Positions 12,346-55,247 of a DNA stretch of 64,000 nt are shown piece after piece (within the stretch, counting starts at the first letter, position 1; every line of letters begins with the position of its first letter). The notes under the pieces were generated by a model that was not told the origin of the DNA, ran no database searches, and worked only from the letters and a program-made list of their open reading frames with translations. This DNA is from Candidatus Pelagisphaera phototrophica (lineage in GTDB: Bacteria; Verrucomicrobiota; Verrucomicrobiia; Opitutales; Opitutaceae). The stretch is taken from the NCBI RefSeq assembly GCF_014529625.1, contig NZ_CP076039.1, positions 248,001 to 312,000 of the forward strand, given 5' to 3'. The translations under genes were made by a program, and so were the position numbers.

Positions 12346-13140
12346 CTAGGACAATCGATCCAAGCGAAGTCTTTGCCTCTCATCAAAGAGTCGCATTTCT
12401 AGCAATTTGAGGGCTGCTGCCATCCCAAACCCCACGCCTCCTGCGATAAAGAACCAAATGATAATCTGGTACTTAACCGCTTCCGTCGGCAAGGCCCCTG
12501 CCAAAATCTGTCCGGTCATCATTCCGGGCAGGGAAACAATTCCCGCCGTCGCCATCGAATTAACCACTGGCATGATACCCGTTCGGATGCAGTCCCGGAG
12601 ATAGGGCAATATCGCCTCTCGAGACGTTTCGCCCAAAGCCAATCGCTGCTCGATGATCGCCCGATTGTCGTGCAGTGCCGACGTCAGACGATCCATGGAA
12701 AGGCTGATCGCGCTCATCGTATTGCTCATGATCATCCCAAGCAATGGGATAGCATATTGAGGTAGGTACCAGGGATCAGGCTTCACCACAACCAGAAGCC
12801 CAAAAAGCGCGATCGCGAATGAAGATACGAAAAGCGTAGAGGCCCCCAGCCCAAAAGACCTCCAGCCTTTGAGCCGCCTTTTTTGCCGGGCCATGATTTC
12901 GCTGGAGGCAACGATCAGCATAATAACCGCCATGATCGCCACATACGACAGCTCACCTTCTGCAAAGAGAAATTTTAGAACATAGCCGATCGCGAACAGC
13001 TGTACCACCAGTCGAACTGAAGCGATCGACAACGTACGAGTAACCCCCAATCGATAGTAGGCCAACAGTATTCCCAGTCCCACTACAATGGCAGCGGCGA
13101 ATCCAATATCCCAAAAATCAAGTTCTATCGCGCCATTCAT
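12346..13140 (-). CDS. fetB: ABC transporter permease, FetB/YbbM family (UPF0014)
   Basis: A 264-residue polytopic membrane protein with about seven hydrophobic helices. It shows UPF0014 signatures LGMIMSNTMSAISLSMDRL, ALGETSREAILPYLRDCIRTG and LPGMMTGQILAGA. The E. coli homologue FetB pairs with FetA as an iron exporter protecting against oxidative stress. The start overlaps the ATPase gene by 4 bp. Physiology in this organism is inferred from the family. Confidence 0.92.
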   Translation of the reverse strand: MNGAIELDFWDIGFAAAIVVGLGILLAYYRLGVTRTLSIASVRLVVQLFAIGYVLKFLFAEGELSYVAIMAVIMLIVASSEIMARQKRRLKGWRSFGLGASTLFVSSFAIALFGLLVVVKPDPWYLPQYAIPLLGMIMSNTMSAISLSMDRLTSALHDNRAIIEQRLALGETSREAILPYLRDCIRTGIMPVVNSMATAGIVSLPGMMTGQILAGALPTEAVKYQIIIWFFIAGGVGFGMAAALKLLEMRLFDERQRLRLDRLS

Positions 13141-13766
13141 TTCGCCAACACCGCCCTATCCAATTCCTTTAGCGACTGGTTCTTCATTTCCAAAATACGA
13201 TGCCCCAGTCTGCCAGCCTGATCTTTACTATGCGTAACCCAAAGAGTTGGGGCTGACTCTTCCCCGATATAATCCAGTAACACTTTTTCCACTACACTCG
13301 AGCTATTTTCATCCAAATTGGCCGTTGGTTCGTCCAGCAAAAGGACCTCTGGAGATCGATCCAGCATTCTTAGAATTCCCAATCGCTGCCGTTCCCCCAT
13401 CGACAGGCGGCTCGGGGCCCATTCACCCGCATCATGGGGTAAGTTTACCTTGTCTAAATCTTCTCGGCTCAGGGGTTTTGAGAAGTGAAGATCCACGGTT
13501 TCCTCCCACCATAGGACCTCAGCAGCCAAATATCCCACCCGCTTTCTCCATTCCGGAGGACTAAAACTCTCTCGTCCCTTTCCCCAAAGAGAAACCTCGC
13601 CTTCATTGACGATCAAATCCGCGATCGCTCTCAATAAAAGTGACTTCCCCGATCCCGAATCACCGAGAAGGCAGACCACCTCACTTTCAGCGACGGATAA
13701 ATCTAGATGCTCCCATTCGATGAAACTCAAATTTTGAATGTTCAACCCCTCCATCTCGCTAGTCAT
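13137..13766 (-). CDS. fetA: ABC transporter ATP-binding protein, FetA/YbbL family
   Basis: About 209 residues from ATG at 13766, chosen because a GGAG sequence lies 10 bases upstream and because the family starts close to its first beta strand. The longer frame reaching 13886 would run into the divergent gene. Walker A is GDSGSGKS, the ABC signature is RLSMGERQR, Walker B is EVLLLDEPTANLDE, and an H-loop follows (WVTHSKDQ). It energises the FetB permease encoded immediately downstream with a 4-bp overlap. Confidence 0.9.
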   Translation of the reverse strand: MTSEMEGLNIQNLSFIEWEHLDLSVAESEVVCLLGDSGSGKSLLLRAIADLIVNEGEVSLWGKGRESFSPPEWRKRVGYLAAEVLWWEETVDLHFSKPLSREDLDKVNLPHDAGEWAPSRLSMGERQRLGILRMLDRSPEVLLLDEPTANLDENSSSVVEKVLLDYIGEESAPTLWVTHSKDQAGRLGHRILEMKNQSLKELDRAVLAK

Positions 13767-27465: not shown

Positions 27466-27760
27466 ACGGTCGATCTTAATAACTACCTAGGCCAGTATCG
27501 TATTATTCCAAAAGTGGATCATAGAGAATATTCTGCAATGCCGTGAAAAAGGTCGGATTGAAATTTCGACCGCAAGTATCCAAACCCCCATAAAACCATG
27601 CAATTGCGAACAAACAAGGCAAGCCTCCGCTCGCCCATCCGTCCTGATTGAAAGCCAACGACATCATGGATAGTTCCATGTGCCAGGCTTCTAAAAATCG
27701 AATTCAAACCGAACTTCCCGCTTTTCATTCCTCGTCCGGCCTTGCACCTTAAGCCCTAAC

Positions 27761-28993
27761 ATGCCCACGCCTGACAGAATCGGCCGACTTCCTGTGACTC
27801 CCCTATCCGGGTTTCTCGGCGCCGGCAAAACCACTTTGCTCAACCACCTCGTACGAAATGCCGCTGGGGAGCGGATCGCCATCATCGTCAACGATATCGG
27901 CGAGGTAAACATTGATGCCTCGCTCATCCGGTCAGAAGTCCGCCAGCTAGATGGAGCCATCGACCAGGTTGTGGAACTCAGCGGAGGTTGCATCTGTTGC
28001 TCCATCCAAGATGATCTCGTCGCCGCCCTCTGGGAGCTCACCCAAAACCGCCAGATCGACCGACTCGTCATTGAGTCAACCGGTGTTGCCGAGCCGTTAT
28101 CCATCGCCCAGACCTTCTTTGCCGACGACATCACAGGTCGCCCTCTTGAGGACAGTGCCTGTATAGACTCTCTTGTTACTATCGTAGATTCTCCTTTTTT
28201 CCTGTGCGAGTGGAAGGCCCACGATGAAAAAGGAACCCAGCGAACGCTCCTTCGCCAAGAGGACGATCGCCCAATTTTCGAACTACTCATCGAGCAGGTA
28301 GAATGTGCCGACATCCTCGTAGCCAATAAGATCGACCTACTAGACGGACAGGAACTCCATGAGCTCGAAGCTATTCTATCTAGCCTCAACGATCGGGCCG
28401 AAATGATAAAAGCGACCCAAGGAAAGGTCGACACAGAGAAAATTCTTGGAAGGCAGCAGTTCAATCCGAAGAGCACGCTATCAGGAGCGAACTGGCTGCG
28501 CTACCTCGAAACCAGCGAGCCAGAGAAGCCTGACATCGCCCGATTCCGCAAAACGGAGATTTCTCCGTCCACCCTTATTCAACCTCGCCTCAGCGCCGCG
28601 ATCGGGGACAAAGAACATGCGGCCCGACTGGTGGATACTTACGTTTATCGAGCACGCAAGCCTCTGAACGCCGATCGTTTTGCCCACGTAATCAACAAAT
28701 CGATACCGGGTCTGCTAAGGGCCAAAGGCTATTGCTGGATCGAAGGACAGGATGATGCCGTCGGCTTTCTCTCGATTACCGGTTCCACGAGCCGTTGCGA
28801 CTTTCTCGGAAAATGGTGGGCCGCTGCTCTCGAGAACGGCAAAATCGACCGTTCCCAAATTCCCCCAGAAGTTGAACGCAAATGGGAACCCCCTTATGGA
28901 GACCGCCGACAGGAACTTGTCTTCATCGGCATCAATCTGGACGGGCCTTCAATCAAGAACCAGATAGACAACTGCCTGATTGAGTGTAGTTGA
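27761..28993 (+). CDS. CobW/COG0523-family GTPase (metal chaperone)
   Basis: A 410-residue G3E GTPase. Walker A is SGFLGAGKTTLLNHL. The metal-binding GGCICCSI contains the CxCC signature. A Walker B-like ESTGVAEP and the guanine-specificity motif ANKID follow. The C-terminal CobW domain is residues ~300-400. The family loads zinc, cobalt or other metals into client proteins. No Zur-like operator was recognised upstream and no client gene is adjacent, so the metal is undetermined. A large antisense open frame over this gene is a shadow. Confidence 0.92.
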   Translation: MPTPDRIGRLPVTPLSGFLGAGKTTLLNHLVRNAAGERIAIIVNDIGEVNIDASLIRSEVRQLDGAIDQVVELSGGCICCSIQDDLVAALWELTQNRQIDRLVIESTGVAEPLSIAQTFFADDITGRPLEDSACIDSLVTIVDSPFFLCEWKAHDEKGTQRTLLRQEDDRPIFELLIEQVECADILVANKIDLLDGQELHELEAILSSLNDRAEMIKATQGKVDTEKILGRQQFNPKSTLSGANWLRYLETSEPEKPDIARFRKTEISPSTLIQPRLSAAIGDKEHAARLVDTYVYRARKPLNADRFAHVINKSIPGLLRAKGYCWIEGQDDAVGFLSITGSTSRCDFLGKWWAAALENGKIDRSQIPPEVERKWEPPYGDRRQELVFIGINLDGPSIKNQIDNCLIECS

Positions 28994-29449: not shown

Positions 29450-29944
29450 ATGAAGTACTACCAGCACCAGTTTGATAAAGTAACGAAGTACCTCCATCAC
29501 CGCCCTCCTTATTTGCTTGTCGATAAAGTTGTCTCAATCACGACGAAAGAGGTAGTAACTCAAAAAACGGTAATCGGCGAAGAAGAATTCATCCAGGGGC
29601 ACTTTCCCGGAGCTCCGGTTTTTCCCGGTGCGATGATGCACGAGTTAACGACGCAATCGGCAGGCATATTGATAGCATCCCAATACAATCCGATGAGAGA
29701 CTTCGACACCGAGGATCCTGACCACAACGAGTACGCTTTAGGGGTCCTTGTGAAAACCGATTATGCAAGATACAGGGGATTTGCGAGACTAGGTGATGTA
29801 CTAGTGGCGACGGTCTGGCTGAATGATCAAGTTAGCGAGATGTTTGATTTTTCTGGGAAAGTATCGGTTAATGGAAAAACGATCATGAAGAATCGCTTCC
29901 GCTTGATGAATATCAAGTCTTCCGCCCTCCAAAAACCCGATTGA
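29450..29944 (+). CDS. FabZ-like 3-hydroxyacyl-ACP dehydratase
   Basis: A 164-residue hotdog-fold protein. It has the FabZ active-site histidine region HRPPYLLVDKV and the second catalytic segment GHFPGAPVFPGAMMHEL with the Glu, followed by TTQSAG. FabZ dehydrates 3-hydroxyacyl-ACP in fatty-acid synthesis. Sequence outside these motifs is divergent and the gene is not near other fab genes. It sits between two copies of a 22-bp repeat in an accessory-looking stretch. A specialised dehydratase for a secondary lipid is possible. Confidence 0.85.
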   Translation: MKYYQHQFDKVTKYLHHRPPYLLVDKVVSITTKEVVTQKTVIGEEEFIQGHFPGAPVFPGAMMHELTTQSAGILIASQYNPMRDFDTEDPDHNEYALGVLVKTDYARYRGFARLGDVLVATVWLNDQVSEMFDFSGKVSVNGKTIMKNRFRLMNIKSSALQKPD

Positions 29945-30231
29945 TCGCAGTTAGCGACATCCCTGCACCGCCAGGCGTATCTTGCAAAATCTTCAAAGCT
30001 GCCATTCTTTCGTTTGTGGTTTTCGCATTCAAAGCACTTCTTATTCTTTCACTTAATGGCTAGTCGGCTGCTCAAAAACCTCAGCGGAGCCGAAGATAGA
30101 GGAGCCAATGCTCACGCCCATTGAAGACTTGGGCTTCTCCCAAGACGTTGAGGAGGACGATGGCGAGTGGAATGATTGAGAGAGAGACTTGTCCAGCTTC
30201 ACTCTCTCAAATGATTTGTTGAAGCTTGCCG
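29945..30231. other. Degenerate intergenic sequence with one tiny open frame
   Basis: No convincing gene. A 23-codon open frame (30108-30179, reading MLTPIEDLGFSQDVEE...) has a GAGGAG Shine-Dalgarno-like sequence just upstream and may be a start-end remnant of a lost gene. Antisense frames here lack any recognisable feature. Confidence 0.4.
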
Positions 30232-30462
30232 GTGGAGCCAATACCCAACTTCAGCAAGGCGCCTTACGTGCATCCGCTCATTATGAAGGATTTTGTCGGA
30301 TGGGTAAGCGACAAGTGTGTCGTCATTCAATCTGTGGATTTGCTCAACGTTCAGAACAGCAGCCGTTACTCCAGAGACATCGAGCCGAGGCAGGACGGAG
30401 AAACCTTTTGGGTTTCAACCCAAGAAGACGGAGGCGGGGGGGTCTTGTCAGTGACGCCCTAG
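30232..30462 (+). pseudogene. Remnant of a conserved hypothetical protein
   Basis: The open frame from GTG at 30232 encodes about 76 residues with PYVHPLIMKDFVGWVSDK and VVIQSVDLLNVQNSSRY. These resemble, from memory, a Verrucomicrobiota hypothetical family with a YVHPxI..DL.GWLSD opening and a Gly-rich C-terminus. Here the C-terminal half is missing or garbled after a Gly run. It could be a short intact protein, but truncation is more likely given the decayed surroundings. Confidence 0.35.
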
Positions 30463-30768
30463 GATATGATTATACATCGATAAACCCCTAAAAAATTATT
30501 ATGCTTATGGTTTTCCAATGGGATAGAGAAAGCCCATTGGTACCTTATTAGTGCCCCCTAAAAGGAAATTGGGTGCTAATACATCAACTGCCCCAGAAAA
30601 TTTTTCGTCCTAAGAGGCTCTGAAGCTAGAAATTGCTTACCCCAACCTGGTTACCATTGAAGTGGGCGCTCGTTGCCTGGTTTATTCGAAACTGCTCAAT
30701 ACTTCGCGGGTGATAGTCAGACAAATTTTCTATACTTTGGATAGCGTCTGAAATAGCTTGCTCGGCCG
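30463..30768. other. Intergenic region before radD, with the right 22-bp repeat
   Basis: No gene seen. It includes imperfect short dyads around 30530-30580 and the second 22-bp repeat at 30582-30603. The radD promoter is expected between about 30640 and 30760 but was not assigned. Confidence 0.45.
30582..30603. repeat. 22-bp direct repeat, right copy
   Basis: CATCAACTGCCCCAGAAAAT plus TT, differing from the copy at 29311-29332 by one base (G for A at position 9). Outside these 22 bases the flanks diverge quickly, so this is a short conserved boundary rather than a long duplication. Confidence 0.7.
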
Positions 30769-32505: not shown

Positions 32506-32853
32506 CTCTACTTTACTAGATTTCGAAATGTTTTTACTAGATAGGGCAATCGCTTCGCAAGCAGAACCCCCGCCGTTTCCTGCATGTTAAGGTAGGGCTG
32601 ACTATCCCTAGTCATCCGGTTTTCCCTACAGTAATCTGTTGCTGCTTAAGGACAATCTACCCTACCTTCGGGAGTCACTCAGAGCCATATGAACTTGGTG
32701 CTAATGACCGCTACTCACCTCCACGGTCAACGACCCTGCACGAGCCCAATGGGCGTCCATCTGTATTCAAAATACACCGCAAGAAGACTGACGCTACACT
32801 GTAGACCCTCTGCTCTTAACAGCCGTCCTTCAGGTGCGCTCAGAGTTCGGTGA
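32506..32853. other. Non-coding gap after radD
   Basis: No gene seen. A 9-bp perfect inverted repeat (AAGGTAGGG at 32589-32597, CCCTACCTT at 32660-32668) spans 62 bases and could be a remnant or long hairpin. The rest shows no structure I can name. Confidence 0.45.
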
Positions 32854-33447
32854 TTATGTCGTCGGCTTCTTTGGCGATATCGATGTTTCCACAAAGACTA
32901 CGTCCATTATTTCGACTGCGATCAGCTTCTCTTCCTCCGGCGACAGCTCCCAATAGGGCTCACCGACAATCTTCAGCTCGTAGCTCGCCGTCTCGATGAC
33001 CACTCGACCGTTTGATTGGCTGAACCATTCTAAATACAGAGCATTGCCCCAATTTCAGGGAAACGGTTTCTTCGCCAATTAGTAATCGCCGATTTCGTCC
33101 AGCAGGATATCGGGAACCTTGACTTTTCGTGACGCGGTTATGTCGCCCACCATTCCTTGCTTTTCGGCCGTCAGTCCATCGCGATCCATGTGTTTCGGTT
33201 CTGGATTCGTGAACTTCAATAGCTGCCCGGCTAGGTCACGCCAGCAGTCGCCTGCTAGATAGAGCTCTATCGGCTAAACTCGACTCGAAAGCCAAAGCCG
33301 ACCCACCACGTGCCCACCCTCACGATTGTCAATTTCTCCCCGAATCACCTGTCCGTCGGTACACCATGCCTTTTCCCATTGTTGGCCGATTCTGCCCTCC
33401 GTGACGAGTATCGAAAAAGGAGATAAGCCGTACAACTCGTCAGTCTC
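32854..33447 (-). pseudogene. Verrucomicrobiota-type hypothetical protein, stopped three times in one frame
   Basis: Reading the minus strand in a single frame from 33447 gives a continuous protein: DELYGLSPFSILVTEGRIG, then KAWCTDGQVIRGEIDNREGG, later GDITASRKVKVPDILLDE, NALYLEWFSQSNGRVVIET, and a TAA at 32854-32856. The frame is interrupted by TAG (33274-33276), TAA (33079-33081) and TGA (33055-33057), all in phase, with another TAG bounding it at 33448. From memory the residues match a hypothetical family common in Verrucomicrobiota (IRGEIDNR..., VVGD(I/M)TASRKV, ALYLEWFS..NGRVVIE). No frameshift is needed. All three stop types occur, so recoding is unlikely and decay by substitution is the simplest reading. 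Confidence 0.8.
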
Positions 33448-33499
33448 CTAACGCCTATCTTTTTCCACTGTTTGGCATCTGACCTAATTCAGATAAGGC

Positions 33500-33530
33500 G
33501 GTGCATTTGCACTAACAGTGCAAATGCACC
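33500..33530. repeat. Perfect 13-bp inverted repeat (hairpin)
   Basis: GGTGCATTTGCAC (33500-33512), loop TAACA (33513-33517), GTGCAAATGCACC (33518-33530). There is no T-tract after it in either direction, so it is not a standard intrinsic terminator. It lies just upstream, on the coding-strand side, of the pseudogene that ends at 32854. It may be a mobile-element end, protein-binding palindrome or recombination site. Confidence 0.85.
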
Positions 33531-33663
33531 CAAGTCATCTCTACCTTCTTTCATAAAGCACCATCGCACATTAGGCACAACGGTGCACATGTCACATCAG
33601 AAACCGCACTCCTGTCAGAAATCATTACCTGCAAACCGTATTTTTATGGTTTACGGTTTAAGC

Positions 33664-33807
33664 ATGAATTTTGATCAGATAGATGAGAAAACGGCCGTAT
33701 TGGATACACACCGACCACTGGGGCTTTGTCTAGCCGAGAACTTAAATGCGCGGTTCCACATCGAGCTGAACTATACGAGCAATGCCTTCGTGGGCAGTAA
33801 AACTTAG
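33664..33807 (+). CDS. Possible small protein, 47 residues, uncertain
   Basis: An open frame from ATG at 33664 (MNFDQIDEKTAVLDTHRP...) ending SNAFVGSKT. In-frame ATG at 33646 is also possible. No homology or Shine-Dalgarno is recognised. It lies between the hairpin and a methyltransferase gene in decayed sequence and may be chance. Confidence 0.22.
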   Translation: MNFDQIDEKTAVLDTHRPLGLCLAENLNARFHIELNYTSNAFVGSKT

Positions 33808-33870
33808 TCGTCTCCCCTGCTCTATTCCGACACTTGCCACCGAGGATTGACTAGTCTGTGCTGCGTTCCA

Positions 33871-34572
33871 ATGAAGCCCAATGTAACGCTCGCTGAAACC
33901 ATGACGCCCAACGGCGCCCGGATGACCCTCGTCGAGCACGACGGCAGCTTTTGTATTCGGGTGAACGGCCAGCAGCTCATGCATTCCAAGGTAACGACCT
34001 CCGAGATCAAGCTTGGTACTCTTGGTTGCGAACGGCATTCGGCGGAAGATCTTCAGCCCAAAGTACTGATCGGCGGACTCGGCTTGGGGTTTACCTTGAA
34101 AAGTGTCCTTCAAACGGCCGGGCCAACGGCGACGGTTCACGTCGTCGAACTATTTCCAGAGATTGTAGAGTGGAACCGCACTTTTATGGCCGGTCTCAAT
34201 GGCGACGCCCTCAAAGACGAACGCGTGAAAGTACTCACGGAAGATGTACGCTCCGTGATATCGCGCTCGGTGCAGACGCCTTATGATGTCATCGCACTCG
34301 ATATCGACAACAACACAACGGCCATGGTGAAGGTTGAAAATCATCTGCTCTATAAGAAAGGTGGGGTGCAACAAATCTGGGAAGCGCTGCGCCCCGGCGG
34401 CCGTGCGGCGATCTGGTTCGCAACCGCCGATGTCGCGATTGAACGACTCCTGAAGAAGGTGGGCTTTAACGTTCAAGCAATCCCGGCCAAGCTCTGCGGA
34501 TCCTCCAAGCGTGAAACCTACATGATCTACGTCGCCGACAAGCCACTGGCAGCAGCGATGGAGACGAAATAA
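33871..34572 (+). CDS. Spermidine synthase-like SAM-dependent methyltransferase-fold protein
   Basis: About 233 residues from ATG at 33871. The fold is that of the spermidine-synthase/MnmC superfamily: a small N-terminal beta region, then VLIGGLGLGFTLKSVL (SAM/dcSAM loop), HVVELFPEIVEWNR (acidic residue binding the cofactor), EDVRSVI and DVIALDIDNN. It lacks the longer C-terminal part and clear polyamine-site residues of true spermidine synthases, so the product is uncertain. It is isolated, with long non-coding gaps on both sides. Confidence 0.8.
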   Translation: MKPNVTLAETMTPNGARMTLVEHDGSFCIRVNGQQLMHSKVTTSEIKLGTLGCERHSAEDLQPKVLIGGLGLGFTLKSVLQTAGPTATVHVVELFPEIVEWNRTFMAGLNGDALKDERVKVLTEDVRSVISRSVQTPYDVIALDIDNNTTAMVKVENHLLYKKGGVQQIWEALRPGGRAAIWFATADVAIERLLKKVGFNVQAIPAKLCGSSKRETYMIYVADKPLAAAMETK

Positions 34573-39186: not shown

Positions 39187-39888
39187 ATGAAATTCTGGAA
39201 AACATCGATCACTCTAGCGACTACGATTCTAGCCGCAACGATGGTTTTTTCCGATCAGGGGGAAAACCGCAACCTGCTTCCCCCGGTTCCGATTTACAAA
39301 GTGTCGCCCAAACACCCGGACGACCTCTACGCTAGAGCAATCGAGGGTAAAGCAGTAATCGCGGTTACCGTGGATATATTTGGCGGCGCGACAAAACCGA
39401 AAGTGGAAACCGCGACCCATCCGGATTTCGGGATCGCCGCATCTCAAGCCGCATCCGAATGGATCTTCGAGCCAGCGACAAAGGACGGCGTTCCGATCGA
39501 ATCACGCGTCAAGCTGCCTTTTGCGTTCGAAATCGCGTTCGAACACAAATTCAACGTTGAGATGGGTCGCGAGATATTCGTCAAACTAAACCATACCGTT
39601 GTGCCTTCGTCAGAGCTCGACAAGGATCCACTGCCTAACTACGTGCCTCCTTTCTCCAACTTTTATCCGGAAAATTTCCGGAATAGCGGGAAGTCCGCCG
39701 CCGTAAATCTCGAGTTCGTCATCGCGCCTAACGGTGAAGTTCTGAATCCCCGTATCCTCTCGATCACTACGTATGGGTTTGAAAAAGCGGCCCTCCAAGC
39801 AATTAGCAGCATGAAGTACCGCCCTGTAGTCGTGGATGGCAAACCAGCTTATGTATCCATGATTCGCCCAATCCAGCTTACGGAGTGA
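39187..39888 (+). CDS. Periplasmic TonB-C-like protein with two repeat domains
   Basis: A 233-residue protein with a signal peptide (residues 1-22). It has two TonB C-terminal-like domains: residues ~35-115 (YKVSPKHPDDLYARAIEGKA, AASQAASEWIFEPATKDG) and ~150-230 (AAVNLEFVIAPNGEVLNPRI, KAALQAISSMKYRPVVVDGK). Both carry the G-x-(A/V)-x-(V/L)-x-(V/F) pattern. It lacks an N-terminal membrane anchor and Pro-rich spacer, so it is not a classical TonB. It may be a soluble accessory to a Ton/Tol system. Confidence 0.82.
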   Translation: MKFWKTSITLATTILAATMVFSDQGENRNLLPPVPIYKVSPKHPDDLYARAIEGKAVIAVTVDIFGGATKPKVETATHPDFGIAASQAASEWIFEPATKDGVPIESRVKLPFAFEIAFEHKFNVEMGREIFVKLNHTVVPSSELDKDPLPNYVPPFSNFYPENFRNSGKSAAVNLEFVIAPNGEVLNPRILSITTYGFEKAALQAISSMKYRPVVVDGKPAYVSMIRPIQLTE

Positions 39889-40009
39889 GGCGGAAGGTGT
39901 AGCATCTAGTCGGTGATCTCCAAGTGATCATTGAGCGAATCATTTTGGGTGTTAGAAATGTATCTGCTAAGCCTAGCGAAGAAGTGAGATCGCCCGCTCC
40001 CTTTCCACG

Positions 40010-41209
40010 TTAGACATCAACGAATACGGCCACTGAAGACGTGTATCCATGAACAAAGTTCCGCCCACCCACCGGTCCGAATTCTCCGTTTCCGAAAAAC
40101 CCGACCTGAGCTTGTGGCGTTATGAGTGGGTAGATGCTCGCCGCATCGCGGTTTTCAACGCCAAACAATCCCATGCCGCGGCCTGAACAACTGCTCAAGC
40201 AGGCCCCATAGATCCGCTTCCCTTCCAGTTCCTGACGGAAGACTGCAATCAATTCCTCAAGCTCTTCGCTAGCGCCCTTTCCATCGCGGATTTGAAACTG
40301 CACGGATTGCCCAACACGAGGGAACGCCCCGACCGCTAGCGAGCCCTTTGACGGATCGGCAGCCAATAGATTGCGTGCCAAAAAATCGCCCCGTTTGAAT
40401 TCCTCCAAATACTCGTCGACCGCAAGCCCCACAAAAACGTGCCCTCGACTCCTCCGGTGCATCTCTTCGCCAATGCCCTGGAAAGTCTCTTCGAGAATGG
40501 TCGCGGCAGGTCGGTTGCCGATCCTCTCAAGAACGTTGCCATTGGCTTTGGTCACCGTCCAGGCATCACCGATCGGTGTGCAACCCTGCGCCGTGACGCC
40601 TAACAGCTTAACACCACCGCCAAAACCCACCGCAACGCCGCCATCAGCGATAACTGAGTCGTTCCAAATCACGGCACTTGTTCTCGCTTCGCTATCGAAA
40701 TGGGCCAATCCACCGTAGATCGGGGCATTGGGGAAATCTCGCTCCCAGGACTTGATCAAGTCCTCAACACTTAAGTGTAACGGCTCAGCAAATACAATCC
40801 AACCATTTATTCCTTCGCTCCCAGGATCAAATTGCCTTCGCCAGAATCCGGGCTCATCGCATGTGATTCCCTTTTGCGACTCTTTCGCTGAAAATCCTAA
40901 ATCTACGATACGCCCACCTGGGAGGCAGAAAAGCCCAAGGGCAATGCCGCCTGTCCTCTCGAACTCAAACTGATTGGAAATCACCCCATTGGAAACGCAT
41001 CCCGCCAAGGTGGGTATACCCAAGGACGACCGAAGTACATCCACAATATCTTCCGCAAAATCGATCCAGTCAGAAGAAATGAATACAAGCCCCAAGTTTA
41101 CCTCTCTTGGCAAAAGAGCGCGACGCAGCCTCAAGGCCCAACGCTTGAATTCCAATTTGTCCCACGGCTCGTTCCATCGATCCGCGATGCTGTAAAACGG
41201 TTCATCCAC
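40010..41209 (-). CDS. FIST domain sensory protein
   Basis: About 399 residues. The start is set at GTG 41209, one base after the oleC stop (GATTGAGGTG), with AGGA five bases upstream. The ATG-led frame reaching 41278 would overlap oleC by 68 bp. FIST-N is visible at LGIPTLAGCVSNGVISNQFE and GIALGLFCLPGG. FIST-C is visible at SLAVGAFPRVGQSVQFQIRD and CSGRGMGLFG. FIST proteins bind small ligands such as amino acids in signalling. Here it is tightly coupled to oleC, an unusual pairing that may reflect lipid-linked sensing. Confidence 0.87.
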   Translation of the reverse strand: MDEPFYSIADRWNEPWDKLEFKRWALRLRRALLPREVNLGLVFISSDWIDFAEDIVDVLRSSLGIPTLAGCVSNGVISNQFEFERTGGIALGLFCLPGGRIVDLGFSAKESQKGITCDEPGFWRRQFDPGSEGINGWIVFAEPLHLSVEDLIKSWERDFPNAPIYGGLAHFDSEARTSAVIWNDSVIADGGVAVGFGGGVKLLGVTAQGCTPIGDAWTVTKANGNVLERIGNRPAATILEETFQGIGEEMHRRSRGHVFVGLAVDEYLEEFKRGDFLARNLLAADPSKGSLAVGAFPRVGQSVQFQIRDGKGASEELEELIAVFRQELEGKRIYGACLSSCSGRGMGLFGVENRDAASIYPLITPQAQVGFFGNGEFGPVGGRNFVHGYTSSVAVFVDV

Positions 41210-48140: not shown

Positions 48141-49835
48141 ATGTCCTTATTCTTCATGATATTAGGCAGCTTGAGCGTGTTCCTATTTGGTATGCGCCTC
48201 ATGAGCGAGTCGATCCAACAATTTTCAGGTGAGCGGCTTCGTAGGATCATGCGCTCGATGACCGGAAACCGATTTGCCGGTGTTATGACTGGATTCCTCG
48301 TCACCTGTCTAGTCCAGTCCTCCTCGGCCACCACAGTCATGGTCGTTAGTTTCGTCCACGCCCGCCTCCTGACCCTAATCCAGTCGATCGGCGTCATCAT
48401 GGGGGCTAATCTCGGCACAACGACAACGTTTTGAATCATCTCGTTTCTGGGTTTTAAGTTTAGCCTCTCAAATATCGCCATTCCCGTAATCGGCGTTGGG
48501 GTTGCAATGACTTTCTTGAAGACCGCTCGCCTCAAGGAGGTCGGCAACTTCTGCACAGGATTCGGATTGCTTTTCCTCGGCCTTAGCCTTCTCAAAAACT
48601 CGGTTCCCGATATCAAGAGCAATCCAGAAGCCTTGGAATGGATCGCCTCTTTGAGTAACTACGGGTTTGGTTCGATCCCCATCTTTCTCGCGGTCGGTGT
48701 GGTTCTCACCATTGTCGTGCAGTCCTCCTCGGTCGCTGGTGCAATAACGCTAACCATGGCGTACAAGGGCTGGATCGACTTTCCTCAAGCTGCCGCGGTC
48801 ATTCCAGGGGAAAATATTGGCACCACAATCACCGCCTACCTCGCATGGCTAACGGCCAACACGGCTGCTAAACGAGCGGCTCGAGCGCATTTCATATTCA
48901 ATATGCTCGGTGTGCTTTGGATGTTCGCCGTATTCTTCCCCTTTATTTCTATGGTCGACTGGCTGATGCCCGGTCCACCAGAAGCTCTTATCGTAGATGG
49001 TCAAGGACGGGCTGACGCGAATCCGGATCTACCAAACCACATGGCGCTTTATCACACGCTCTTCAACTTGCTTAACATCCTTCTACTGATCGGTTTTGTA
49101 CCCAAGATCGCCCAACTCGTCGAATGGTTGGTCAAAGAAAAACCCACTACTGCCCACCTTCCCACCTTCCGGTATCTCGACACTATGTCATGGGGCTCCG
49201 GGGAACTGAATTTCTCCGAAGGCAAGCAAGCGATTCGGAAACTCGGTGATCTAAGCAAGCAGATGTTTGAGCAGTTCCTTTTTGTATATAACAATCCGCA
49301 GGAAGACCTTTCCGAAAAAGTGAAAGAGATCAACCGGATGGAAGAGGAGAGTAACGAAATCACCTCAGAGCTGTACGATTTCCTCATTCATTACTCCTCC
49401 GACCATGTAAGCAACGAAACCCGACAAGAGGCTACGCGGTACCTCCGAGTGATCGCAGAGCTCGAGGAAATCTGCGACTGCTGCCACCGAATCACGAACC
49501 GGGCTGCAAAACGCTATCGGAAAAACCGCTTTATCAATAAAGAGATTGAGGACGACATTGTCCAATTCGGTGAAAACGTTGAACGATTTATAGACTTCTA
49601 CCAATCCCGAATTCAGTCGAAAGTATCAGCGGCTGATATGGAAGTTGCGATCGATCTCGAAGATATGATCAACGAAAAGAGGCGGAAGCTGCGAAAACGT
49701 TCTGTCAATCGGATGACCAATAATAGTGCAGAGGTGCACTCTGAGCTCATCTATATTGAGATTGTGAACAATTTCGAACGTATCGCAAATCATTCGAAAA
49801 ACATCATTCAGTCATTGCCGAAAGAGACAACCTAG
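48141..49835 (+). pseudogene. Na+/phosphate cotransporter with one in-frame TGA (possible nonsense mutation or readthrough)
   Basis: A single frame from ATG 48141 encodes an NptA/YjbB-type Na/Pi transporter of about 565 residues: FLFGMRLMSESIQQFSGERL, then VQSSSATTVMVVSF and GANLGTTTTF. A stop TGA at 48432-48434 follows, then the same frame resumes with IISFLGFKFSLSNIAIPV and continues through VQSSSVAGAITLTM, GENIGTTITAYLAWLTA and a PhoU-like helical domain to 49835. No frameshift exists. Relatives carry Trp (TGG) at this point, from memory. Everything else looks intact, so the lesion is recent, an error, or translated by readthrough. No selenocysteine element is obvious. Confidence 0.85.
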
Positions 49836-49869: not shown

Positions 49870-50577
49870 CTAGCTTAGCGACAAGACGTCCTTCATCACC
49901 TCGACCGAGGCCAGCTTGCCCGCCATGGCTCGATAGGCCTGAATGATTTGACGGGGCAATCCATAACGACGAAATCGAATTTCCAATGATGCAGAATCGA
50001 ACCGAAAAACCGGTTCCAGTCCTTCGATCCGAGTTTCGCAATACTCGCAGGTAGATGGGTAGTCTACCGTTACTTCGCTCCCTTTGCAGTCTTCGATTCC
50101 GTCTATCATAGACTCCACGGAAACGTCGCGCCTGAACAGGCAGCACATTCGCTCGAACAGCGGCCCTGTCGCTTGATTGAAAGACTCGCACTCGAGCAAC
50201 TCTAGGCCGCTCGCGTTCATAAGCTCCGTTTCGACTAGGTAACTGTCCGGACTGTCTTGATTCAACGAATACCGCCGCTCCAGAATGAAATCCTTGCTCT
50301 CGATCCGAGCTACCCCTCCCTCAACGAGGGACGAAATGTCTTTCCGCCTATAATCCATCGCCTCTCTATAAGCGGCGAAAAGCGATTCGCTCCATTCCAC
50401 TAGTTCCGGCTCCGCAAGTCGTGCCAGGAACTGCTGGGCCCGATCGCTGGCGTACTTCGGCACGGTGTGCCGGGATTTGTCGAAACCATCGAAACGCTTC
50501 ACCATGCCTTGGTGCTCCCCTACTAGGGTAAGTTGGCTGATAAGCCTTTTGTCAGCAACTTTCTCAGTTTCGTCCAT
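49870..50577 (-). CDS. Protein of unknown function divergent from oleD
   Basis: About 235 residues from ATG 50577; a longer frame to 50643 would overlap the oleD start and is less likely. It is a mixed-charge soluble protein with several cysteines (MCCLFRRDVS, TCEYCETRIEG) that could bind a metal. No family is recognised. The C-terminal part is helical. It lies close to oleD with divergent starts, so the two may share a promoter region. Confidence 0.7.
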   Translation of the reverse strand: MDETEKVADKRLISQLTLVGEHQGMVKRFDGFDKSRHTVPKYASDRAQQFLARLAEPELVEWSESLFAAYREAMDYRRKDISSLVEGGVARIESKDFILERRYSLNQDSPDSYLVETELMNASGLELLECESFNQATGPLFERMCCLFRRDVSVESMIDGIEDCKGSEVTVDYPSTCEYCETRIEGLEPVFRFDSASLEIRFRRYGLPRQIIQAYRAMAGKLASVEVMKDVLSLS

Positions 50578-50641
50578 CGAGATTGCAGGAGATGCCGGCA
50601 GATACTTGACACTACTCAGCGACACGCAAGCCTCTGTTCCC

Positions 50642-51694
50642 ATGCCGATGCCAGAGAAAGCCCTTACCTTTCAATCCTTGGCACCTCGACGCGTACTTGT
50701 CACCGGCGCAAGTGGATTTCTCGGCGGGAATCTCATTCAACGGCTTCTAGATCAAGGTTGCGCGGTAAAAGGGCTCTGCCGACGACCTCAGCCTAAACTG
50801 GAAGCGCTCGGAGTAAAAATGTTCTATGTCGATCTGGCTGACGCAAAATCGGTTCGAAACGCATGCCAAGAAGCCGATACCGTGTTTCATACCGCGGCTA
50901 AAGTTGGCATCTGGGGAGAGTACCGTGAGTTTCATGATGCGAACGTAATTGGAACCCAGTCGATCGTTAACGGGTGCCGCGACTTTGAAGTAAGCAAACT
51001 GATCTATACCAGTACTCCGAGTGTCGTTTTTAATGCCGAGGCTATTTCAGGAGCCAATGAATCGTTGCCCTATGGCGATGGCATTCCCTGTCATTATCCA
51101 ACGACGAAAGTAATCGCGGAAAAAGCGGTCCTCGCCGCACACGGGCTTCCTCCAGGGAACCTCAAGACAGTCGCCCTCCGACCCCATCTCATCTGGGGCC
51201 CAGGAGACCCAAATCTTATACCTCGAGTACTGGATCGAGGAAGAAAAGGGAAGCTGCGCATTGTTGGGGAGGGGAACAATCGAGTCGACCTGAGCTACAT
51301 CGACAATATCGTCGATGCCCACCTCTCCGCGGAGGCGGCCCTTGACAAACTCGAAAACAACCCAGGGGGGAAAGCGTATTTCATAAGTAATGACGAACCC
51401 GTTCTACTCTGGGAATGGATCAATGGTCTTCTGAACCGAAACGGTATTTCCACAATAAAAAAGAAGATCAGCCTCGCCCAAGCTCAAAGAGCGGGAGCGG
51501 TATTGGAACTGATATGGAAAGCGCTACGCCTGCGTGGGGAACCCCCGATGACCCGGTTCGTCGCTTCGGAGCTAGCCAAAGACCATTGGTTCGATATCGC
51601 GGCGGCCAAACGCGACCTCGACTATCATCCACGTGTTTCCATGGCAGAAGGGATGAACCGACTCCTAAAAGCCAGCGCCCTCGCATCAGACTAA
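50642..51694 (+). CDS. oleD: OleD-type 2-alkyl-3-ketoalkanoate reductase (SDR)
   Basis: About 350 residues from ATG 50642 (or 50648). An extended SDR fold: VLVTGASGFLGGNLIQRLL, then a catalytic YTSTPSVVF and HYPTTKVIAEKA (Y-x-x-x-K), VALRPHLIWGPGDPNLIPR and YFISNDEPVLLWEWIN. This matches OleD, which reduces the OleA condensation product to a 2-alkyl-3-hydroxyalkanoate, the substrate of OleC. It is first in an operon with sixA, an RmlD-like SDR and an LplA-like gene (gaps 19, 9 and 12 bp). A 3-beta-hydroxysteroid dehydrogenase role is the main alternative. Confidence 0.88.
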   Translation: MPMPEKALTFQSLAPRRVLVTGASGFLGGNLIQRLLDQGCAVKGLCRRPQPKLEALGVKMFYVDLADAKSVRNACQEADTVFHTAAKVGIWGEYREFHDANVIGTQSIVNGCRDFEVSKLIYTSTPSVVFNAEAISGANESLPYGDGIPCHYPTTKVIAEKAVLAAHGLPPGNLKTVALRPHLIWGPGDPNLIPRVLDRGRKGKLRIVGEGNNRVDLSYIDNIVDAHLSAEAALDKLENNPGGKAYFISNDEPVLLWEWINGLLNRNGISTIKKKISLAQAQRAGAVLELIWKALRLRGEPPMTRFVASELAKDHWFDIAAAKRDLDYHPRVSMAEGMNRLLKASALASD

Positions 51695-54371: not shown

Positions 54372-55247
54372 ATGCGATACTCCCTCCTTTTTTCACTCCT
54401 TCTTCCTTTAATCGCTTCAGCCTCAATAGACCCCCACATTCCCTCCCACTGGACCGAGGGCTACGTCGTAGCCAACAACATCCGTATCCATTACTGGCGC
54501 ACAGGCGGAGACAAGCCTCCCATGGTTCTAGCCCACGGTTACTCCGATGATGGACTGTGCTGGACAGCGGTAGCGCAAGAGCTGGAAGACCAGTATGATG
54601 TGATTTTGCCTGATGCACGAGGCTTTGGACGCACGGATCCACCCTCCCAAACGGAACCGGCCGATGTGCAGGTAGAGGATCTAGCGGGATTCATATCGGC
54701 TCTTGAACTGGAGAAGCCAATCCTCATGGGCCACTCCATGGGAAGTTCTTCAGTGGCCTGGTTTTCAGCACGTTATCCGGATATCCCCCGAGCATCCATA
54801 TTGGTCGACCCTCGACTAGTGCCACGTACACCGAAAGCGCAAGCTGCACGCAACTCTGTGCCCATGGAGAATCGGGTTCAGGCTATTCTAAATAGAAACA
54901 ACACCAACTACCGAGAACTCTTCGACTCTCAAAAGGTGCGCAATCCCCACTTTAGTTTTCTAGAGCTCCACTTCTGGGCATTGTCCAAACAACAGTACCA
55001 TCCCAACACCGCTTATCGAAGTCTAGACGACCGTCCTCAAGCGAGCGACCTCTTTGCCAAGACCTCCTGCCCGACGCTAATTCTGAAAGCAGACGATCAA
55101 GGAGAGCTTCGTGCAGGCAACGAATCGGTTGCCTCGAACCTGAAGAATGGCGAACTTGTCCACATAGAGGGTGCTGGCCACAGCGTCCACCGAGATCAGC
55201 CAGAAAGGTTTCACCTAGCCCTGAACGCATTCCTCTCAAAACTTTAA
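54372..55247 (+). CDS. Exported alpha/beta-hydrolase
   Basis: A 291-residue protein with a signal peptide (residues 1-18) and the alpha/beta-hydrolase fold: VLAHGYSDDGLCWTAVAQEL (oxyanion HG), a nucleophile elbow GHSMGSSS, an acid in LILKADDQGELRAGN (weak) and the His in EGAGHSVHRDQPERF. Likely an esterase or lactonase in the periplasm. It is flanked by copies of the dispersed intergenic repeat. Confidence 0.88.
   Translation: MRYSLLFSLLLPLIASASIDPHIPSHWTEGYVVANNIRIHYWRTGGDKPPMVLAHGYSDDGLCWTAVAQELEDQYDVILPDARGFGRTDPPSQTEPADVQVEDLAGFISALELEKPILMGHSMGSSSVAWFSARYPDIPRASILVDPRLVPRTPKAQAARNSVPMENRVQAILNRNNTNYRELFDSQKVRNPHFSFLELHFWALSKQQYHPNTAYRSLDDRPQASDLFAKTSCPTLILKADDQGELRAGNESVASNLKNGELVHIEGAGHSVHRDQPERFHLALNAFLSKL

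Follow-up and report, generated by a model that had tools for sequence, protein, structure and literature searches.

Introduction

Na/Pi symporters of the NptA type exist with and without a PhoU domain, as stated in an excerpt of PMC13170248, according to which the PhoU domain of the S. aureus protein acts in phosphate control. This S. aureus type with a C-terminal PhoU-like domain, covered by the families PF02690 and PF01895 and by the models NF037997 and TIGR00704, is on the strength of that excerpt the closest described system to the gene studied here. For the Verrucomicrobia, the excerpted text of PMC12872454 describes an isolate with two Pst systems next to three NptA symporters, a type that it regards as low affinity. 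More distant is the solute carrier family 34 member 2a (PDB 9z60-9z64, 9z66), which matches residues 4-101 of the open orthologue of our gene in G001, a related genome (E 4e-16), the match stopping short of the PhoU tail. In-frame stops, in turn, are presented in the excerpted part of Belinky et al. 2021 (PMC7918605) as widespread in bacterial genes, as tending to be short-lived and as able to accompany dN/dS <1.

Here we analysed a stretch of 64,000 nucleotides of the Candidatus Pelagisphaera phototrophica chromosome, termed the window, in which a preliminary description had noticed a Na/Pi transporter gene interrupted by one TGA and had listed a recent stop, a sequencing error, or readthrough or decoding of UGA as Trp or selenocysteine as possible causes. 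Our data make it likely that the TGA is a recent nonsense allele (Trp98 to UGA) in a dispensable transporter gene that is recurrently lost.

Results

The host genome (G000) is a single contig of 4,086,264 bases, 97.87% complete, with Opitutales and Opitutaceae MAGs as its nearest named relatives. The gene of interest is a 564-codon Na/Pi symporter-PhoU gene on the plus strand (48141-49835), open apart from the TGA at codon 98 (Table 1). Re-reading the frame confirmed the absence of any shift: it runs from ATG 48141 as MSLFF...GANLGTTTTF into the TGA, continues with IISFLGFKFSL... and closes with TAG 49833-49835, the first ATG past the TGA lying at 48507 and opening an ORF of 442 aa. The motifs that the preliminary description had called preserved were all located, with QSSS at residues 59 and 194, GANLGTT at residue 88 and GENIGTT at residue 223, followed by the PhoU-like tail. 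Both pieces score above the PF02690 cut-off of 29.1 bits and the second also above that of PF01895 (23.5 bits), while the open orthologue in the related genome G001 exceeds the cut-offs of NF037997 (177.2 vs 50) and TIGR00704 (249.5 vs 210.1). Judged by these matches, the chromosomal gene codes for an NptA-type Na/Pi symporter to which a PhoU-like domain is fused. The window copy has PF02690 and the two QSSS motifs, distributed over two pieces, as well as the C-terminal PhoU domain, and departs from the type in that its reading frame is not continuous, owing to the TGA at codon 98.

Table 1 Coordinates of the interrupted symporter gene and of the insert carrying a second symporter
Feature	Position	Strand	Remarks
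N-terminal piece, 97 codons	48141..48431	+	Na/Pi cotransporter domain start, first QSSS, GANLGTT; PF02690 114 bits
In-frame TGA, codon 98	48432..48434	+	Trp in 33/33 relatives covering the site
In-frame remainder of the transporter	48435..49835	+	Second QSSS, GENIGTT, PhoU-like tail; PF02690 72 bits, PF01895 52.5 bits
Insert, 5,532 bp	L157:9685-15216 = G000:C1:687684-693215		Carries the PhoU-less symporter

The expectation that TGG had stood at the position of the TGA was borne out by alignment with relatives, as residue 98 is Trp in every one of the 33 related loci spanning the site. Of the 34 loci entered in the alignment, L032 starts after the site; G003 and G002, both with a deletion that takes out the site, are outside this count. 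The closest copies, those of G009 and G001 (96% and 93% identity over the 442-aa tail), are both syntenic with the window and both open. As in a pseudogene, the disabling lesion is missing from the sister-species orthologues. Comparison of the window with 42 G001 genes (13,827 residues, taking the best segment of each at ≥75% identity to the window) covered 240 Trp positions, and the interruption at codon 98 is not attributable to chance, since it is the sole stop among them.

Within the genus, we could examine the gene in 10 of 11 genomes, leaving out G008, whose copy ends at a contig end. Six of them (G001, G004, G005, G006, G007 and G009) give full-length alignments free of stops. The TGA at codon 98 is seen in G000 only. 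Three further genomes, which were beyond the view of the preliminary description, carry different lesions in the same syntenic gene. In the one-contig genome G010, 1 nt is deleted near codon 66; in G003, the start ATG is changed to ATT, 139 nt are deleted and a TAG stands at Trp167; and in G002, a large internal deletion fuses nine start codons to the final ~75, out of frame. All three genomes retain the neighbouring genes, with the exception of the homologue of window gene 49870-50643, which in G010 (L113:11177-11898) is itself broken over three frames with one stop. The G003 match to the window gene at 50465 also contains one stop, at residue 51, which we judge to lie ahead of the true start of that homologue.

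In a tree of two flanking proteins, G002 and G003 are joined with support of 100 and G010 stands apart, the deep branches being weak (43–64). Because of this pairing and separation, at least three independent losses would have occurred in the genus, or four in the case of separate losses in G002 and G003. Broken copies thus amount to 4 of the 10 testable genus members, compared to one of the 29 near-full-length orthologues outside the genus (Fisher one-sided, p = 0.011; p = 0.035 for 3/9 vs 1/29), p values that are to be read as indicative, since the comparison group was picked after the genus had been seen. The second test omits G002, as its type of lesion would escape the search outside the genus. 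The outside orthologues are the near-full-length rows obtained from a family sample of 150 genomes, 58 of which had any match, the window's own counted; not included among the 29 are G043, whose copy is divided between contig ends, an incomplete second copy of G118 that lies at a contig end, and matches that are short or distant. The only broken outside copy, in G020 of another genus (L135:791-2431), is interrupted by an internal TGA at a different place, the residue corresponding to Gly118. Among the literature matches listed, none reports loss of this gene in Opitutales, and we make no claim beyond those.

We then turned to the remainder of the gene, for which the preliminary description had concluded that nothing else had decayed. 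Relative to G009 and G001, its own branch carries 13 nonsynonymous and 22 synonymous changes, a ratio of rates of ~0.18. Given this constraint over most of the branch, reading the gene as a pseudogene requires the stop to be recent. The statement stands for the frame and the motifs, which are kept, but is weakened for the protein as a whole, as seven own-branch missense residues are absent from every aligned relative. These include G12S (Gly in 28/28 relatives), L222P (Leu in 32/33), S236W (Ala or Ser in 33/33) and C418Y (Cys in 32/34). As signs of decay they are only suggestive, because the open copy of G001 likewise has seven unique residues; that of G009 has none. Raised N/S as proof of decay was tested and is not significant, neither against the other two branches (p = 0.27) nor against the neighbouring genes of G000 (p = 0.54). 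A profile-based severity measure, applied to 15 own-branch changes including two in codons with three different states, rated these as milder than random missense (P = 0.03). The G009 and G001 changes were milder more clearly (all 4000 simulated means were higher), and the difference in missense severity between the own branch and the other two gave p = 0.07. With N/S not significantly raised and the severity difference only suggestive, the stop is probably young.

An error of assembly or sequencing, or a consensus base taken from a minority allele, with the population gene reading TGG, appears unlikely to us, even though a single base decides and the own branch shows constraint otherwise. The TGA arose by a substitution; G010, G003 and G002 show lesions of other types, and in two of these genomes large deletions are involved. 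Nor did sequencing errors turn up in numbers: 43 of 66 G001 ORFs match the window, and besides the symporter gene only a doubtful 109-aa ORF and one of 554 residues with a stop at 552 were flagged as interrupted. The search for other TGA-interrupted genes proposed in the preliminary description hence yielded no other clear interruption among these 43.

Comparison with G001 revealed further differences between the two genomes. The window ORF at 54372-55247 (291 aa) is open here, and its G001 counterpart is divided by a change of frame. Five window stretches longer than 300 bases have no match in the otherwise collinear G001 contig, namely 12647-13380, 27561-28978, 29513-30642, 32660-34515 and 39489-40671.

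UGA is the leakiest of the stop codons, and low-level or conditional readthrough by the ordinary tRNA-Trp could make the stop a throttle on a transporter that is still under selection. The stretch past the stop, with 17 synonymous and 11 nonsynonymous own-branch changes, has the low N/S that this would predict, and values of dN/dS <1 for in-frame stops are also found in the excerpt of Belinky et al. 2021 (PMC7918605), who make the case for such a role in general terms. A young mutation predicts a low dN/dS equally, however, and the stop is present in one genome only, with no sign of retention, while relatives have lost the gene outright. In the tRNA-Trp of G000, which has A at position 9 and G at position 24, the anticodon stem comprises five pairs topped by G-U, unlike the 4-bp type described in the excerpted text of PMC13092985. 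We thus give readthrough little credence. Alteration of the tRNA-Trp in this lineage was rejected, as the stem is normal and the tRNA is identical in G001, G002, G003 and G006; in G004, G005, G007, G009 and G010 it is 97–99% identical, and none was found in G008 in the same comparison. G001 and G006, despite a tRNA-Trp identical to that of G000, keep a Trp codon at the site.

Recoding of UGA, either to Trp throughout the genome or to selenocysteine, would account for a TGA in frame at a Trp codon position and was among the causes listed at the outset; we regard it as highly improbable. UGA serves as a stop: TGA ends 13 of the 37 window ORFs whose end matches that of the G001 partner, 12 of the 13 also being TGA in G001. 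The gene prfB for RF2 scores above its cut-off in G000 (498 bits), in a frame containing SPF and GGQ, which we take to be the RF2 motifs. Conserved use of UGA as gene end and the presence of RF2 contradict a genome-wide UGA=Trp code. Among the 40 tRNA matches listed, all of them typed (150 of 216 candidates scored), there is one tRNA-Trp, with anticodon CCA, and none with anticodon UCA; as this list is incomplete, lacking tRNA-Ile(GAT), an unusual or suppressor tRNA could have escaped. Selenocysteine at codon 98 is very unlikely, and the suggested check for its machinery turned out negative in G000: the profile search for selA gave no match, and all matches for selB and tRNA-Sec were below cut-off. 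The best selB match lies within a 399-aa frame, and these matches are taken to be other GTPases, judged by frame length; the best eight for tRNA-Sec are Ser, Leu, Cys and His tRNAs. Moreover, the homologues have neither Cys nor Sec at the site, and we know of no precedent for selenocysteine replacing Trp. Of the three options listed in the preliminary description, the recent stop is accordingly the best supported. A split into two cooperating genes, a 97-aa piece and the 442-aa piece from ATG 48507, is just as improbable as recoding: both pieces are open with family motifs kept, but the cut falls inside the first repeat, 24 in-frame codons separate the TGA from this ATG, and all 33 loci covering the site lack the split.

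Regarding other routes of phosphate uptake, PstC is found above cut-off in 11/11 genus genomes. A Pit-type transporter as replacement was rejected, with 0/11 above cut-off and one weak match, in G002. G000 itself encodes a second Na/Pi symporter, which is PhoU-less, open and 442 aa long (G000:C1:689706-691031; NF037997 127.5 bits, cut-off 50). Together with genes for a sulfatase, a VPDSG-CTERM protein and an alpha/beta hydrolase, it resides on an insert with the 3' end of tRNA-Leu(UAA) on one side and an exact 10-bp repeat of this end on the other; no integrase was present among the five ORFs scanned. The insert is missing in G001, where the tRNA-Leu end joins directly to the sequence right of it, and likewise in G009, on a contig that holds only 30 bases of the tRNA end. 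Elsewhere in the genus, strong matches to the PhoU-less symporter were obtained in G003 and G006, the weak ones falling in the PhoU-fused gene. The G003 copy (L158:3914-5185) lies in an unrelated neighbourhood and encodes a protein 90.5% identical to that of G000, a closer match than between syntenic genes of G000 and G003 (53–79%). From this pattern we infer that the PhoU-less symporter was gained laterally.

These observations raise the tentative idea of a replacement in progress, in which the PhoU-less symporter was gained, the resident PhoU-fused symporter became dispensable and the nonsense mutation followed. It fits with the uninserted site and open resident gene of the sisters and with the 90.5% copy held by the broken G003, and is weakened by G010 and G002, which lost the gene without having a PhoU-less symporter, and by G006, which has both genes. 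The PhoU-less symporter is present in two of four genomes with a broken gene (G000, G003) and one of six with an open one (G006), and its role as a general compensation is unsupported. If the replacement were true, the species would be swapping a transporter with its own regulatory domain for one without that domain.

Discussion

The explanation we favour, a nonsense allele of recent origin in a gene prone to recurrent loss, would involve the following steps. A nonsense mutation turned Trp98 of the Na/Pi symporter-PhoU gene into UGA, which RF2 would read as stop, leaving a 97-residue fragment that misses the greater share of the membrane region. As the first repeat is absent from the ORF downstream, a working transporter would not be expected from it. 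The loss may be tolerated owing to the retained Pst system, represented by pstC, and to the PhoU-less symporter present on the tRNA-Leu insert. Separate breakage of the same syntenic gene in other members of the genus points to a dispensable gene undergoing recurrent loss.

A possible case of recoding is hereby settled as most likely an ordinary nonsense allele, ordinary also in its mechanism, the deciding checks being the sister genomes, stop usage, RF2 and the tRNA. Beyond the single allele, a PhoU-fused Na/Pi symporter appears to have been broken repeatedly within one Opitutales-type genus, in contrast to pstC, which is present in 11/11 genomes searched. This contrast bears on the question of which phosphate uptake route these bacteria need, a point that is open to testing.

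Compared to the NptA-PhoU type, the window gene shows the same Na_Pi_cotrans matches, two QSSS motifs and a PhoU-like tail, and differs by the break at codon 98. The lineage has a UGA at a Trp position in common with that with the 4-bp tRNA-Trp stem, as excerpted from PMC13092985, and differs from it in that UGA is a used stop here and the stem has five pairs. With an in-frame stop together with dN/dS under 1, the gene agrees with the excerpted description in PMC7918605. It resembles bacterial nonsense pseudogenes in its in-frame stop, in being open in sister genomes and in that no recoding machinery was found in G000, and among these would stand at an early stage, as most of its sequence still looks constrained.
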